From Chryseobacterium jejuense (lineage in GTDB: Bacteria; Bacteroidota; Bacteroidia; Flavobacteriales; Weeksellaceae), in assembly GCF_900100075.1 (NCBI RefSeq), contig NZ_FNEG01000002.1:620001-684000 (forward strand): a stretch of 64,000 nucleotides of DNA. The letters are read 5' to 3'. The notes beneath the pieces are model-generated. The model saw nothing but the letters and a program-made list of their open reading frames with translations, ran no database searches and was not told the origin of the DNA. The translations under genes and the position numbers were made by a program. Below, in pieces: positions 4,169 to 9,455 of the stretch. Numbering within the stretch: the stretch's first letter is position 1; the number at the start of each line of letters is the position of its first letter.

Positions 4169-4957
4169 ATGGAAAGACCGCTTATTCTGGTTACTAATGA
4201 TGATGGAATTACAGCTCCCGGTATCAGAAATCTAATCAGCTTTATGAACGAAATCGGAGACGTAATTGTGGTAGCCCCAGACTCTCCTCAAAGTGGTAAA
4301 GGCCACGCTATTACTATTAATTCTACACTAAGCTATGAAGAAGTTAAGCTTGATGGCCCACAAACAGATTATTCATGTAGTGGAACGCCTGTAGATTGCG
4401 TAAAAATGGCTCTTGATAAAATTCTGACAAGAAGACCCGATATTGTAGTTTCAGGGATTAATCATGGTGCCAATTCATCCATCAATGTAATTTATTCAGG
4501 AACAATGTCTGCCGCTGTAGAAGCTGGTGTAGAAGGAATTCCTGCAATTGGATTCTCATTACTGGATTTCAGTTGGGAAGCAGATTTTACTCAGGCTAAA
4601 GAGTTTATTCAGAATATTGTAAGAAGAACGCTTGAAAATCCAATGCCTAAAGGAATCGTCCTGAATGTGAACATTCCGAAACTTCCTGCATCAGAAATAA
4701 AAGGGATAAAAGTTTGCAAACAGGCTAATGCGAAATGGGAAGAAAGCTTTGATGAGAGAGTAAATCCACACGGGAAAAAGTATTACTGGTTAACAGGTTA
4801 CTTTAACAATATGGATGAGTCTGAAGATGCTGATGAAACAGCTTTGGCTAACGGATACATTTCTATCGTCCCGGTAAAATTTGACCTTACAGCGTATGAA
4901 TATATGAAAACGTTGGAAGAAGTAATGGCTTTTGATGCCGTAAAAGAAACTAAATAA
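4169..4957 (+). CDS. surE: 5'/3'-nucleotidase SurE
   Basis: A 262-residue cytosolic phosphatase that dephosphorylates 5'- and 3'-nucleoside monophosphates and is linked to stationary-phase survival. The divalent metal site is visible: Asp11 and Asp12 (TNDDG), Ser42 (SPQSGKGH) and Asn98 (SGINHGAN). The SGTPVDCVK motif (71-79) is also typical. Full length for the family, with the start directly before the first beta strand (PLILVTNDD). It is monocistronic here and followed by a strong terminator. Confidence 0.96.
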   Translation: MERPLILVTNDDGITAPGIRNLISFMNEIGDVIVVAPDSPQSGKGHAITINSTLSYEEVKLDGPQTDYSCSGTPVDCVKMALDKILTRRPDIVVSGINHGANSSINVIYSGTMSAAVEAGVEGIPAIGFSLLDFSWEADFTQAKEFIQNIVRRTLENPMPKGIVLNVNIPKLPASEIKGIKVCKQANAKWEESFDERVNPHGKKYYWLTGYFNNMDESEDADETALANGYISIVPVKFDLTAYEYMKTLEEVMAFDAVKETK

Positions 4958-4975: not shown

Positions 4976-5017
4976 GAAAAAGCGTGAAATTTGATTTCAC
5001 GCTTTTTATTTTTTTAG
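4976..5017 (+). terminator. Terminator of surE
   Basis: Stem 4977-4989 (AAAAAGCGTGAAA) with 4995-5007 around a 5-base loop, followed by a long T-rich run. Confidence 0.85.
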
Positions 5018-5087: not shown

Positions 5088-6491
5088 TTAAAACAACACT
5101 TTATCTTCCTTCCTCAATTCTTCCAGATAGCTTTTCTTATCATCTCTGTAGAAAAGGTTCATGGTTTCAAATGGAATTAATTTCAGATCTTTATTAACTA
5201 TATGAACACAGGATTTCTTCACTGCTCTCACATCAAAATCATGAGCGTCCATGAAGTTCATAATGATGATTCTAAACAGATTATCATAATCAAGATCCGG
5301 CGCACATACTTCCGGCAAACAACAAAGTAACTGGTTAACTTTAGGTTGTACTTTATCTACTGAAATACCAGTGCTGAAGATATCCAGCAACTGCATATGA
5401 AGCCCTGCATCCTGTTCGTAAACAATGGTATTTTTAGATTCATTATTCAGAAGATCGGCAGGATTGATATATCGGGTTAAAGGAATAATCTCCCCTTGAA
5501 GTTTTAATATATAGCCCATTGCAAGGGCATCCGGATTACACGGAACCGGAATAATATCATCAGAATTTAAAAGCGGGAACTGATTCAGAATTTCCTGTCT
5601 TACCTCCGTTAAAGTGATTTTCTCATGAGCAGAATCCTCTCTGTTTCTTCCCGCAATTTCTACTGGCTGGAAGGTAATTCCTCTTACACATTTCTGTTTT
5701 AAAGCAAAATCAATAATCTTTCCGATTTCATCAATATTTTTATCTTTTTGAAGAACAATTACCAACGTAGTGGAAAGGTTGAGTTCATTCAATTTTTCTA
5801 GAGCCTTCATCCTTACAGAAGTAAGATCTTTTCCTCTGAAATCTTCCAAAACTTCCGGTTTAAAAGAATCAAACTGAAGATACACTTCAAACTCAGGAGC
5901 ATAAGTAGCCAGTTTCTCAGCAAAACCCGGATCATTGGCAATTCTTATCCCATTTGTATTCAACATTAAATGTTTAATGGGTTTAGACTTGGCAATATCC
6001 ATAATTTTAAAAAATTCCGGATGGATGGTAGGCTCTCCACCACTGATCTGAACTACATCAGGCTCTCCTTCATTTTTAACAATCACATCAAACATGGCCT
6101 CAATCTCCTCCAAACTTCTGTGGCTTCCATAATGTGGAGAAGACATTGCATAACAGGTTGGACAGGTCAGATTACAACGATCTGTAACTTCTACAATGGA
6201 AAGACAACTATGCTGCTCATGATCTACACAAAGACCACAATCATAAGGACATCCGTACTCCACATCTGTTCCGAAATGAAGGGGCATTTCCGAAGCTTTA
6301 TTGTAGTTTCTTATATTTTTGTAATAATGAACATCAGAAGCAATTTTTGTTTTGAAAAAGCCATGATCCGGACATCTTTTGGTCATGAAAACGGCTTCAT
6401 CCTCTATAATAATCTTCGCTCCTACCCTTTTCAGGCATTCCGGACAAAGACTGATCGTATAATCGTAATAGGTATAGTTTCTTACTGGCAT
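5088..6491 (-). CDS. Radical SAM enzyme of the MJ0619/tetraether-lipid-synthase-like family
   Basis: A 467-residue radical SAM protein. The SAM-binding cluster motif is Cys106-x3-Cys110-x2-Cys113 (DRCNLTCPTCY), followed by GGEP at 151-154. N-terminal to it are more cysteines (CPEC at 16-19, Cys40, and Cys81/85/88/96 in CPYDCGLC...HSC), suggesting extra metal sites. The block GCPYDCGLC-x-DH-x-QH-x-CL-x-IVEVT-x-RCNL is what I recall from the archaeal MJ0619/Tes proteins, which join lipid chains by C-C bonds. Bacterial homologues have other or unknown roles, so the reaction is not assigned. It is the last gene of an operon with an Lgt-like membrane enzyme, which hints at lipid or lipoprotein modification. 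Confidence 0.75.
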   Translation of the reverse strand: MPVRNYTYYDYTISLCPECLKRVGAKIIIEDEAVFMTKRCPDHGFFKTKIASDVHYYKNIRNYNKASEMPLHFGTDVEYGCPYDCGLCVDHEQHSCLSIVEVTDRCNLTCPTCYAMSSPHYGSHRSLEEIEAMFDVIVKNEGEPDVVQISGGEPTIHPEFFKIMDIAKSKPIKHLMLNTNGIRIANDPGFAEKLATYAPEFEVYLQFDSFKPEVLEDFRGKDLTSVRMKALEKLNELNLSTTLVIVLQKDKNIDEIGKIIDFALKQKCVRGITFQPVEIAGRNREDSAHEKITLTEVRQEILNQFPLLNSDDIIPVPCNPDALAMGYILKLQGEIIPLTRYINPADLLNNESKNTIVYEQDAGLHMQLLDIFSTGISVDKVQPKVNQLLCCLPEVCAPDLDYDNLFRIIIMNFMDAHDFDVRAVKKSCVHIVNKDLKLIPFETMNLFYRDDKKSYLEELRKEDKVLF

Positions 6492-6509
6492 AATTAATTT
6501 TTAAAATGC

Positions 6510-6737
6510 TTATCCACAAATATATCCGCTGATTAGCCCGCAGACCAATAAACAAATAACAAAGGTCTGTATAAACTGTTTTCTGCTGAATTTTCTGCTA
6601 TCCTTACTTTCATAGACAAACTTTACAATAAAGGTAACAATTATAGAAAAAAACAGAGCGCCTATAACCATCATCCCAACGATCATAACAAAAACACCTG
6701 CAAGGCTACCGCCTTCTAAAAAAGTTAAAGTTTTCAT
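6510..6737 (-). CDS. Small two-helix membrane protein in the radical SAM operon
   Basis: A 75-residue protein with two predicted transmembrane helices (about 13-40 and 57-73) around a short basic cytoplasmic-type loop (ESKDSRKFSRKQ). I recognise no family. Its ATG overlaps the stop of the Lgt-like gene by four bases and it ends 18 bases before the radical SAM gene, so the three are almost certainly co-transcribed and translationally coupled. It may be a membrane partner of one of the two enzymes. Confidence 0.7.
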   Translation of the reverse strand: MKTLTFLEGGSLAGVFVMIVGMMVIGALFFSIIVTFIVKFVYESKDSRKFSRKQFIQTFVICLLVCGLISGYICG

Positions 6738-7489
6738 CTTGAATATTTTAAATAAGTGATTTGAGTGTTTTTAACAGTATAAATGTAGTAAATAATTACA
6801 CAAATACATACAAGTTGAATCGTCCCGAGGTTTCCCGCAATTTCAACCCTTGGTTTAATAAAGTCTAAAAAGAACCTGAATATAAAATAACTCAGCATAA
6901 AGAGCTGAAAAAGAAACCCTGATGGATACTTCTTCTGTTTCTGAACATATTTCAAAACGATCCAAAGCCCAATCAAAAAGCCTATCTCATACAAAGCAAC
7001 AGGATGCCTCAAATATTGATCTCCCAAATGCATCCCAAAAACAGAATCTGTTGGAATACCATAAGTTTCCTCGTGAATTCCTGTAAGAAAACAGCCAATT
7101 CTTCCGATAATTATAGCTAGCATTAAGGGAAAAACAATCAGATCTCCTGTACTTTCTTTATGTCCAACTGCTTTCTTAGCCAATTCTACCCCCAGAAGTC
7201 CAAAAGCCAGTCCTCCAACAATTGTATTGCTGGACCAAAACTTTTGAAAACTGAAATTATCAAACATAGTGTAAGGATTTTCCAGATTTCCAATGAGTTT
7301 GGATCCTAATAATGCTCCAGCTGTTGCCCCTATCAAAACGGCAGCAGAACTATTGAAAGATAGTTTCTCCTTTGATTTTCTTTTTAGGAAAAAATAATAC
7401 CGCATGCCCAGAAACATTCCTACCGCCTCAAAAAGAGGATGGGCAAGGATGGTTTGGCCGAAAATATGAAAGGTTACAGGAAAATCCAT
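6734..7489 (-). CDS. Prolipoprotein diacylglyceryl transferase (Lgt)-like membrane protein
   Basis: A 251-residue polytopic membrane protein with the Lgt layout: several helices, a GRIGCF motif (129-134), then RHPVALYE (161-168). Lgt transfers diacylglycerol from phosphatidylglycerol to the lipobox cysteine of prelipoproteins. In canonical Lgt the first motif reads GRxGNF and its Asn is functionally important; here it is Cys. That divergence, and the operon with a Tes-like radical SAM enzyme instead of the usual lgt neighbours, suggest a paralogue with a different acceptor or lipid. A housekeeping lgt should exist elsewhere in the genome, outside this window. If none exists, this could be the real Lgt. 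Confidence 0.75.
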
Positions 7490-7550
7490 TGCTTCAAAAA
7501 TAATCCATTTCAGATTATTTACTACCTTTATTCTGACAAATAATTACAAA

Positions 7551-8591
7551 ATGCGTATAGAATATGACATAAAACTGGGGTTTAAGGATGTAATGTTCCG
7601 CCCAAAGCGTTCTACATTGAAGTCCCGTTCAGAAGTAAACCTGGAAAGGGAATTTATCTTTAAACATACCAAAAAAAGATGGAGTGGAGTTCCTGTTATT
7701 GCAGCTAATATGGACACTGTAGGAACTTTTGAAATGGCCGTAGAACTGGCTAAAGATAAAATCATCACAGCTATTCATAAACATTATACACCGGAAGAAT
7801 GGGATCAGTTTCTGCAAAGCCAGCCTGAAAGCATTCATCAGTATATTGCTCTAAGCACTGGCACCGGAAAAGCAGATGAAGAAAAAATCAGACTGATCCT
7901 TGAAAAGCATCCAAAAATCGAGTTTCTCTGCATAGATGTTGCCAATGGATATTCTGAGCATTTCGTTCAGTTTGTGAAGACGGCAAGGGCTAATTTCCCT
8001 GATAAGATCATCATAGCCGGAAACGTAGTGACCGGAGAAATGGTGGAAGAACTTCTTTTAGTAGGAGCAGACATCATAAAAGTTGGTATCGGGCCTGGTT
8101 CTGTATGTACAACCCGTGTAAAAACAGGAGTTGGTTACCCGCAATTATCTGCTATTATTGAATGTGCTGATGCTGCTCATGGTTTAGGAGGTCATATTAT
8201 TGCAGACGGAGGCTGTAAAATTCCGGGAGATGTAGCCAAAGCTTTTGGCGGTGGTGCTGATTTCGTCATGTTAGGTGGAATGTTTGCCGGACACGATGAA
8301 AGTGGTGGTGAAATGATTGAGGAGAATGGTAAAAAATACCGTTTATTCTACGGAATGAGCTCAAAAACAGCAATGGATAAGCATTCAGGTGGTGTAGCCG
8401 AATACCGCGCTTCTGAAGGGAAAACCGTAAAAGTAGCGTATAAAGGTCCGGTTGCTGAAACTGTGAAGGATATTTTAGGTGGAGTGCGCTCTACATGTAC
8501 GTATGTAGGAGCTTCCAAGCTTAAAGAACTTTCCAAGCGAACTACTTTTATCAGAGTTCAGGAACAGGAAAATCAGATTTTTAACGGATAA
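7551..8591 (+). CDS. guaC: GMP reductase
   Basis: A 346-residue NADPH-dependent GMP reductase that converts GMP to IMP and ammonia in purine salvage. It has the IMPDH/GMPR barrel: AANMDTVGT near 51-59, the catalytic loop GPGSVCTTR with Cys186 (the same position as in E. coli GuaC), and the phosphate-binding region [16 protein letters not shown]. There is no CBS insertion, which separates it from IMP dehydrogenase. Length is standard. It is divergent from the Lgt-like operon and convergent with fabG. Confidence 0.96.
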
Positions 8592-8593
8592 AT

Positions 8594-8623
8594 TTCTCGC
8601 AGATTTTTCAGATAATGCAGATG
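8594..8623. repeat. Dispersed intergenic repeat, copy B
   Basis: Second copy of the TCTCGnAGATTT-nn-CAGATAAnGCAGATG element seen at 5018-5047, located just after guaC. Confidence 0.5.
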
Positions 8624-8669
8624 TAAGAAGTCTGCTTCAATAAGATCAGCTTGATGATTCTTAAAAGAA

Positions 8670-8713
8670 CAAAAAAAGAGGCTACCCATTTTGCGTAGCC
8701 TCTTTATATTTTT
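8670..8713. terminator. Bidirectional terminator between guaC and fabG
   Basis: An 11-bp perfect stem (8675-8685 with 8695-8705) has an A-run on its left and a T-rich run on its right. It serves both convergent genes. Confidence 0.88.
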
Positions 8714-9455
8714 AAGTTAACATTCCTCCGTCAACGTTCAATGTCTGTCCGGTAATGTATGATGCCATTTCACTTCCTAAGAAAACACAAGCATTTGCTA
8801 CATCAGCAGGTTGCCCTCCTTTTTTCATTGGAATTCCATCTCTCCATTCCTGAACTATTTTTTCATCTAAAATAGCAGTCATTTCTGTTTCAATGAATCC
8901 AGGAGCAATAGCGTTACATCTGATATTTCTGGAACCTAGTTCTAATGCAACAGATTTTGTAAATCCAATTACACCTGCTTTAGAAGCGGCATAGTTAGCC
9001 TGTCCTGCATGTCCCTGAATTCCTACTACAGAAGTCATATTAATGATAGATCCTGATCTTGCCTTCATCATCGGCTTGATAACCGCTTTTGTAAGGTTGA
9101 AAACCGAATCAAGGTTTACTTTGATTACCTGATCCCAGTCTTCTTTAGACATTCTTAATAATAAGTTATCTTTTGTAATCCCAGCATTGTTTACCAAAAT
9201 ATCAATCTGCCCAAACTCTGCCATTACTTCTTCTACCAATTTTTGAGCGGCATCATAATCTGATGCGTCAGACTGATATCCTTTAATTTGGGTTACAGAA
9301 CTTAAAGCTGCTTCTAATTCTTTAGCTTTGTCTACAGAACCGGCATAAGTAAATGCTACTTTTGCTCCTTGTTGAGCATACATTTCAGCAATACCCTTCC
9401 CGATTCCTCTCGTAGCTCCGGTAATTAGTGCTACCTTTCCTTCTAATAATTTCAT
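8712..9455 (-). CDS. fabG: 3-oxoacyl-[acyl-carrier-protein] reductase
   Basis: A 247-residue short-chain dehydrogenase with the FabG profile: TGATRGIG (12-19, NADPH binding), NNAG (89-92), the catalytic triad Ser142, Tyr155 and Lys159 (YAASK), and the C-terminal DGG motif (TLNVDGGML). It reduces beta-ketoacyl-ACP in each round of type II fatty-acid elongation. It is not in a fab cluster here, which is usual in flavobacteria. The 171-base upstream spacer carries no other gene. Confidence 0.93.
   Translation of the reverse strand: MKLLEGKVALITGATRGIGKGIAEMYAQQGAKVAFTYAGSVDKAKELEAALSSVTQIKGYQSDASDYDAAQKLVEEVMAEFGQIDILVNNAGITKDNLLLRMSKEDWDQVIKVNLDSVFNLTKAVIKPMMKARSGSIINMTSVVGIQGHAGQANYAASKAGVIGFTKSVALELGSRNIRCNAIAPGFIETEMTAILDEKIVQEWRDGIPMKKGGQPADVANACVFLGSEMASYITGQTLNVDGGMLT

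Follow-up and report, generated by a model that had tools for sequence, protein, structure and literature searches.

A conserved gene set pairing a remodelled Lgt, a Tes relative and a cysteine-ended membrane protein suggests an undescribed route of membrane-lipid attachment or tailoring

What could a bacterium do with relatives of the archaeal lipid-coupling enzyme Tes and of the diacylglyceryl transferase Lgt that are encoded next to each other, with a tiny membrane protein between them? This question is raised by a locus of Chryseobacterium jejuense, situated in a stretch of 64,000 nucleotides (contig NZ_FNEG01000002.1, positions 620,001 to 684,000), which we will refer to as the window. 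Three minus-strand genes are found in a row, in the order Lgt-like gene, small membrane protein gene and gene encoding a radical S-adenosylmethionine (SAM) enzyme. The first two overlap by 4 bases (6734-6737) and a gap of 18 bases (6492-6509) separates the second from the third, in agreement with the coordinates of a first-pass annotation that had been made from the sequence alone. As set out below, the conserved association of these three components suggests an undescribed route for the attachment or tailoring of membrane lipids. The features concerned are the following.

6734..7489, minus strand: Lgt-like membrane protein of 251 amino acids (PF01790, 81.4 bits; AlphaFold 2 model with pLDDT 93.8; 5azb, VIA Z 14.4)
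7217..7219, minus strand: V91 codon of the Lgt-like gene, at the position of E. coli H103 (profile alignments)
7079..7105, minus strand: Lgt-like segment with R130 (= E. coli R143) and C133 (= N146) (profile alignments)
6510..6737, minus strand: small two-helix membrane protein of 75 amino acids, the proposed acceptor (open reading frame and its relatives)
6513..6536, minus strand: C-terminal motif LISGYICG of the small protein (alignment of 18 close relatives)
5088..6491, minus strand: Tes-like radical SAM enzyme of 467 amino acids (Pfam and NCBIfam matches; PDB 7tol, E = 8.2e-61; AlphaFold 2 model against 7tom, TMq 0.81)
6153..6176, minus strand: radical SAM motif CxxxCxxC, C106-C113 (aligned with the motif of MjTes)

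The presence of a separate canonical lgt had been set beforehand as a check on an unusual role for the locus. The host genome contains two further lgt genes (E = 1.8e-58 and 1.4e-53, versus 1.7e-22 for the window gene); because both are stronger matches, the window Lgt-like gene is a paralog. Separate searches over the same genomes were then made for the radical SAM protein and for the Lgt-like subfamily. In the host family, each of them was detected in 39 of 148 genomes, and these 39 are identical; in all of them the pair lies on one contig, at most about 1.5 kb apart. The pairing within the family is thus beyond chance. Among 395 genomes of the phylum, a strong radical SAM match (1.3e-98 or better) was obtained in 31 and a strong Lgt-like match (4.1e-77 or better) in 32; 31 genomes are common to both, 29 of which have the genes within about 1.1 kb. 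The Lgt-like search was not blind, as its profile was made from 24 genes adjoining a radical SAM gene; its matches separate cleanly, at 4e-77 or better and then at 4.4e-31 or worse. Three weaker radical SAM matches bring the phylum total to 34. One of these (locus L064, genome G241, 6589-9288) is 29% identical to the window protein and adjoins a divergent Lgt-like gene, and may represent an independent pairing. In another Bacteroidota genome (G163, locus L264, 5653-6498; same family as G237), no radical SAM remnant is seen near the Lgt-like gene, pointing to loss or to another use.

A wider scan of named genomes, carried out with a nine-row alignment headed by a divergent member (L060), yielded at least 568 relatives of the radical SAM protein. 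Of the 80 best-ranked loci, which are no random sample, 72 have an Lgt-like gene near the radical SAM gene on the same strand, and six of the eight misses (L110, L114, L123, L131, L136 and L163) end at a contig edge on the expected side. These 80 records are titled Chlorobaculum, Clostridium, Paenibacillus, Brevibacillus, Ktedonosporobacter, cyanobacteria, Acidobacteria, Actinobacteria, Elusimicrobia, Spirochaetia, Patescibacteria, Hymenobacter, Mucilaginibacter and Flavobacterium, together with a few archaeal metagenome-assembled genomes (MAGs). Another, stronger lgt is present in 19 of 20 genomes of this wide set, the exception being an archaeal MAG. Hence, the proposal that the genes are conserved as a unit holds for the Lgt-like/radical SAM pair, which is usually accompanied by a small membrane protein gene; the operon is conserved in Bacteroidota, where a survey had been proposed, but its spread reaches beyond that phylum.

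A quick tree of the radical SAM proteins, built from 101 of 149 rows after near-copies of more than 82% identity had been dropped, places all Lgt-adjacent rows except the long-branch L064 inside one branch of 61 rows with a support of 86, whereas archaeal and acidobacterial Tes fall outside. Within this branch, 54 rows have an adjacent Lgt-like gene; the seven others are five of the misses (L110, L123, L131, L161 and L163) and two rows (L058 and L059) with an Lgt-like gene elsewhere in the genome. The adjacency label changes 9 times on the tree versus 33.6 times in shuffles. Tes homologs in bacteria have been on record since 2022, without confirmed function (PMC8941075, PMC9433317, PMC11868695; papers given by PMC number are cited here for parts of their text), and two of these three papers propose membrane-spanning lipids as their product. 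An Lgt partner is not mentioned in the parts consulted of the three papers, and among the papers listed by searches of the open-licence PMC library, no title or abstract opening pairs an Lgt-like with a Tes-like gene. One large clade of bacterial Tes homologs can now be separated from the rest through its Lgt-like partner, which serves as a genomic marker.

The Lgt-like protein clearly belongs to the broad Lgt family, since its PF01790 score exceeds the gathering cut-off of 24.9 bits by far, but it misses both Lgt equivalog cut-offs (39.1 versus 118.9 for TIGR00544 and 54.9 versus 334 for NF000778). Its AlphaFold 2 model, based on 45 sequences, matches the E. coli Lgt structure 5azb with a Foldseek E value of 4.9e-07 and over 243 residues in VIA, where 5azb alone stands out and the other listed rows have a Z of 6.5 or less. 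Residues were counted in 135 of 143 Lgt-like sequences, four cut loci and repeated loci being excluded, and two profile alignments concur on the residue pairs with E. coli Lgt. R143 and R239 (window R130 and R205) are each kept in 135/135 sequences, as is G154; E202 and Y235 are each kept in 134/135, the E243 position is E or D and the R246 position is K or R. In contrast, the position of H103 in the HGGL motif (window V91) is occupied by V (101), M (18), I (6), L (4), T (4) or A (2), and no histidine occurs in the surrounding segment in any of the 135. The N146 position (window C133) is Cys in 133 and Asn in 2 of the 135; N146 is important in E. coli Lgt, and its counterpart, N133 of the reference canonical sequence, is invariant in 16 canonical sequences. 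The Y26 position (window H17) is His in 114/135 and Tyr in 19, the latter including all 16 sequences with the motif GCC[YF]G. In E. coli Lgt, R143 and R239 act on the C3-O bond of phosphatidylglycerol, while H103 was proposed to bind the lipobox peptide and H103A, H103N, H103Q, H103R and H103Y mutants do not complement (PMC4728403). Compared with that enzyme, the Lgt-like protein therefore shares the fold over most of its length and the phosphatidylglycerol-activating residues, but has H103, N146 and Y26 replaced, indicating that the donor half of Lgt stands and that the acceptor half is altered. The Asn-to-Cys change, from which a new acceptor had been suggested, is a family trait; the acceptor side has indeed changed, but the loss of H103 is the stronger sign of a putative new acceptor. 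The motifs GRIGCF and RHPVALYE are present as reported, but they belong to the Lgt-like protein and not to what had loosely been named the membrane protein.

The blocks CPYDCGLC and DRCNLTCPTC that had been read in the radical SAM protein are both there. Pfam assigns it Radical_SAM and Zn_ribbon_HMPTM domains, and a profile comparison with MjTes (MJ0619) gives an E value of 6.3e-107. The mean pLDDT of its model is 85.2, with residues 356-398 below 50. Ligands of the rubredoxin iron, the N-terminal [4Fe-4S] cluster and the radical SAM cluster of Tes have been described (PMC9433317). In the window protein the corresponding residues are C16, C19, C40 and H43 (rubredoxin), C81, C85, C88 and H91 (N-terminal cluster) and C106, C110 and C113 (radical SAM cluster), so that, judged by alignment, the ligands of three of the four Tes metal sites are kept. 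The three columns that are presumably the ligands of the fourth, C-terminal cluster are Cys in 18/18 Tes rows but have changed in the paired enzymes: A19 C15 S6 N1, S36 T5 C1 and D21 E20 C1 in 42 main-clade rows and R15 S2 L1, E18 and S18 in 18 rows of a sister branch. Among 20 further Tes-like rows that lack Lgt, the second and third columns are Cys in 18 each; the C-terminal change therefore goes with Lgt pairing. Furthermore, the Met439 column (window M411) is M in 34/42 main-clade and 0/18 sister rows, and the Tyr459 column is Ile or Val in most paired rows; both residues are conserved in archaeal Tes and dispensable for its activity (PMC9433317). Extra cysteines are found at C318 and C428 in 41/42 main-clade and 18/18 sister rows, and at C390 and C391 in the main clade.

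The enzyme is therefore a Tes relative, as proposed, but chain coupling is not implied: it resembles Tes/GDGT-MAS (7tol, 7tom) in fold, in the three sets of ligands and, in the main clade, in Met439, and differs from it in the C-terminal Cys columns, Tyr459, the new cysteines and its separate tree branch. An identity as true Tes was rejected, both because the cut-off of NF045702 is missed (273.9 versus 450 bits) and because of the C-terminal Cys columns. Its best NCBIfam match is the radical SAM (seleno)protein family TrsS (NF045646, 320.7 bits), which is listed without a function in the table of a 2026 review (PMC13188914); TrsS was also rejected, the score being below the cut-off of 490. No Lgt-like gene was found nearby at the Tes-proper loci analysed.

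The small protein had been given no role, yet the cysteine of its C-terminal helix turned out to be the most telling feature of the locus. It matches no Pfam or NCBIfam family above cut-off, and seven other small proteins match no Pfam family. Small open reading frames (ORFs) with at least two hydropathy-predicted helices were collected 3' of the radical SAM or Lgt-like gene, and statistics were based on 106 of 146 ORFs retained after a 60% filter, at loci with both enzyme genes. Cys occurs in the last 22 residues of 96/106 of these non-redundant ORFs, as opposed to 39/115 further small membrane ORFs at these loci. Counted from the C-terminus, the Cys rate is 9.6% at residues 5-9, compared with 0.2-1.6% in each 5-residue bin at residues 20-79; the commonest letters around it are L-[LI]-[IL]-G-x-[GSA]-x-C-[GFAS]. 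In the 96 Cys ORFs, K/R number 2.97 versus 0.68 D/E before the last helix, where K/R exceed D/E in 93%, and K/R number 0.27 after the Cys. By the positive-inside rule, the Cys is thus predicted to lie outside, on the side of the Lgt active site. Among the 18 close relatives only G71, C74 and G75, the terminal GxxCG, are invariant. The new element here is the Cys that closes the last helix of this fast-evolving protein.

A qualifying ORF is present at 68/80 named, 54/58 Bacteroidota and 4/9 Acidobacteriota or archaeal loci with an Lgt-like gene, versus 0/12 Tes-like loci without one, where the stretch scanned was shorter, as it is not extended by an Lgt-like gene. More than one qualifying ORF, with some possibly overlapping, was counted at 14/80 named and 15/58 Bacteroidota loci; this variable number, combined with the fast drift, would resemble the behaviour of a substrate. 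In the 148 family genomes the window small protein has matches in 27: 26 at the pair locus and a weak, stop-broken one in genome G078. An Erysipelotrichaceae MAG (L116, 10179-11969) was observed to carry five tandem small membrane-protein ORFs after its Lgt-like gene, three of them with the terminal Cys.

At loci with the GCC[YF]G form of the Lgt-like protein, the gene order is radical SAM, ICMT-family protein, DUF4395 protein, Lgt-like and small protein. ICMT was above cut-off in 8/8 and DUF4395 in 4/4 of the proteins tested from this sister operon. ICMT enzymes methylate S-prenylated C-terminal cysteines, and the gene may thus point to lipidation of a C-terminal Cys; the pointer is a weak one, as bacterial members are diverse. 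The likeness to eukaryotic prenyl-cysteine lipidation lies in the terminal Cys of a small membrane protein and the ICMT-family gene of the sister operon; unlike there, no prenyltransferase was noticed at these loci, a CaaX end is lacking and the donor would be phosphatidylglycerol. The three-gene operon of the window has no ICMT gene.

The earlier notion of a lipid or lipoprotein-type pathway apart from canonical lgt finds support, and so do a conserved operon, a Tes relative and an altered acceptor side. We tentatively favour, at somewhat less than an even chance, a dedicated lipidation module in which the Lgt-like enzyme lipidates the Cys of the small protein and the radical SAM enzyme tailors the lipid. 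This reading is preferred as the simplest that gives each of the three genes a part. Its observed side consists of gene content, co-conservation, residue patterns and predicted folds; the topology and every reaction we infer. The small protein would insert with its K/R-rich loop inside, so that its last helix ends outside at Cys74. The Lgt-like enzyme would bind phosphatidylglycerol, with R130 and R205 activating the glycerol C3-O bond, and may then transfer diacylglyceryl to an acceptor that is not a lipobox Cys; the likeliest candidate is the Cys with which the last helix of the small protein ends on the outside. Either before or after this step, the radical SAM enzyme would generate a carbon radical at an acyl-chain terminus and tailor the chain by coupling, cyclising or thiolating it. 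If the acceptor is indeed this Cys, the locus would define a second kind of bacterial lipoprotein; a concrete substrate candidate makes the function of bacterial Tes homologs testable.

Several observations weigh against this proposal. On the side of the enzymes, H103 of canonical Lgt is gone, Met439 is kept in most main-clade rows and speaks for closeness to Tes, and the product of the radical SAM enzyme is not readable from Tes, since the C-terminal site has been rebuilt. As to the pairing, two genomes (G180 and G415) carry the Lgt-like and radical SAM genes on different contigs, G163 has a strong Lgt-like match (E = 4e-77) but no radical SAM gene, L161 and L171 lack an Lgt-like gene even though DNA on the expected side is present, and the archaeal MAG contigs with the pair may be misbinned. 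As to the small protein, a terminal Cys is frequent among the 115 control ORFs too (39 of them), and its motif is no lipobox: the conserved Cys, C74, is the last residue but one of the 75, within GYIC, and [LVI][ASTVI][GAS]C following an N-terminal signal peptide is not found. The same scan detected no small gene near the pair at 12/80 named, 4/58 Bacteroidota and 5/9 Acidobacteriota or archaeal loci, where in some cases the contig ends, and under looser criteria 16 loci, almost all of them drawn from these misses, yielded few candidates; the small gene is therefore possibly not obligatory. Finally, 13 of the 39 pair-bearing family genomes have no match to the window small protein at E 0.001, and its homology thus rests partly on the motif.

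The main rival, possible though less probable, is a pathway for free lipids. Here the Lgt-like enzyme would move diacylglyceryl from phosphatidylglycerol onto something other than a protein, namely another lipid or a headgroup, chain ends would be joined or modified by the Tes-like enzyme, and the small protein would serve as scaffold or regulator. A membrane-spanning or bridged lipid that has so far escaped recognition could result. The absence of the peptide-side His from the Lgt-like enzyme, the absence of the small gene near some pairs and the retention of Met439 of Tes in most main-clade rows would all fit such a pathway, as would the sister-operon ICMT-family proteins, which also score against the phospholipid methyltransferase PEMT. 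Moreover, Tes itself acts on lipid chain ends (PMC9433317). However, a free-lipid pathway leaves unexplained why conservation in the small protein centres on one terminal Cys, and three Cys columns that are invariant in Tes have changed. The clade is also present in cyanobacteria, which are not known to make branched or membrane-spanning fatty acids. Judged by its description, a further known system close to the locus is the membrane-spanning lipid synthase Mss of Bacillota and others, which couples acyl chains in bacteria (PMC13274423); 'Lgt' is absent from the main text of that paper.

An extended form of the lipidation module, which we regard as rather unlikely, would be a bacterial counterpart of C-terminal protein lipidation: an Lgt paralog would put diacylglyceryl on the outer last-helix Cys of tiny proteins and a Tes-type enzyme would link or cap the chain ends, perhaps tying the protein-borne lipid to the opposite leaflet, with an ICMT-type methyltransferase joining in the sister branch. 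More doubtful still is that the small protein is an unmodified assembly partner, with its Cys ligating a metal site or forming a disulfide bond with C133 of the Lgt-like protein or with the radical SAM enzyme in a membrane complex. The conserved Cys of the Lgt-like protein itself (133/135) and the contiguity of the window genes, two of which overlap, are in line with this, but the varying ORF number and fast sequence drift are unlike a fixed subunit, and the Cys is predicted outside while the radical SAM enzyme is presumably cytosolic. Least of all do we expect an ordinary second lipoprotein Lgt with an unrelated radical SAM neighbour, which was rejected despite the PF01790 score and the Lgt fold in view of the H103 position (no His in 135/135, where E. 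coli substitutions do not complement; PMC4728403), the missed equivalog cut-offs, the other lgt genes and the tight co-occurrence with radical SAM.

Some further observations concern the distribution and surroundings of the genes. In Acidobacteriota, no Lgt-like gene was detected within up to 1.5 kb on either side at the 30 loci with the strongest Tes-family matches, which were taken automatically and are in some cases cut by contig ends, whereas one lies beside a radical SAM gene of the paired clade in 8/20 further regions, which were hand-chosen and are thus no census. In this phylum (L188-L217, L238-L257) several separate Tes-type radical SAM families coexist, with two or three matches in many genomes: besides Tes proper there is a group of longer proteins scoring about 300-350 bits, and there are smaller groups. 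Among Thermoplasmatota, the starting MAG alone has the pair, and an Lgt-like gene is absent from all 20 loci and 5 further regions covered. Archaea-binned contigs with the pair are L117, L124 and L179 (Woesearchaeota, Nanoarchaeota and Thalassarchaeaceae), owing to transfer or misbinning; the Thalassarchaeaceae MAG has no other lgt. Sequence identity spreads widely inside the one operon: 33/39 radical SAM matches across the host family are 90-100% identical, the Lgt-like proteins compared from the same genera are 57-77% identical and most small-protein matches lie at 40-77%. Downstream of the operon, one more feature was recorded.

4977..5007, no strand assigned: 14-pair terminator-like stem in the interval that separates the radical SAM gene from the convergent gene 4169-4957 (consensus match only)

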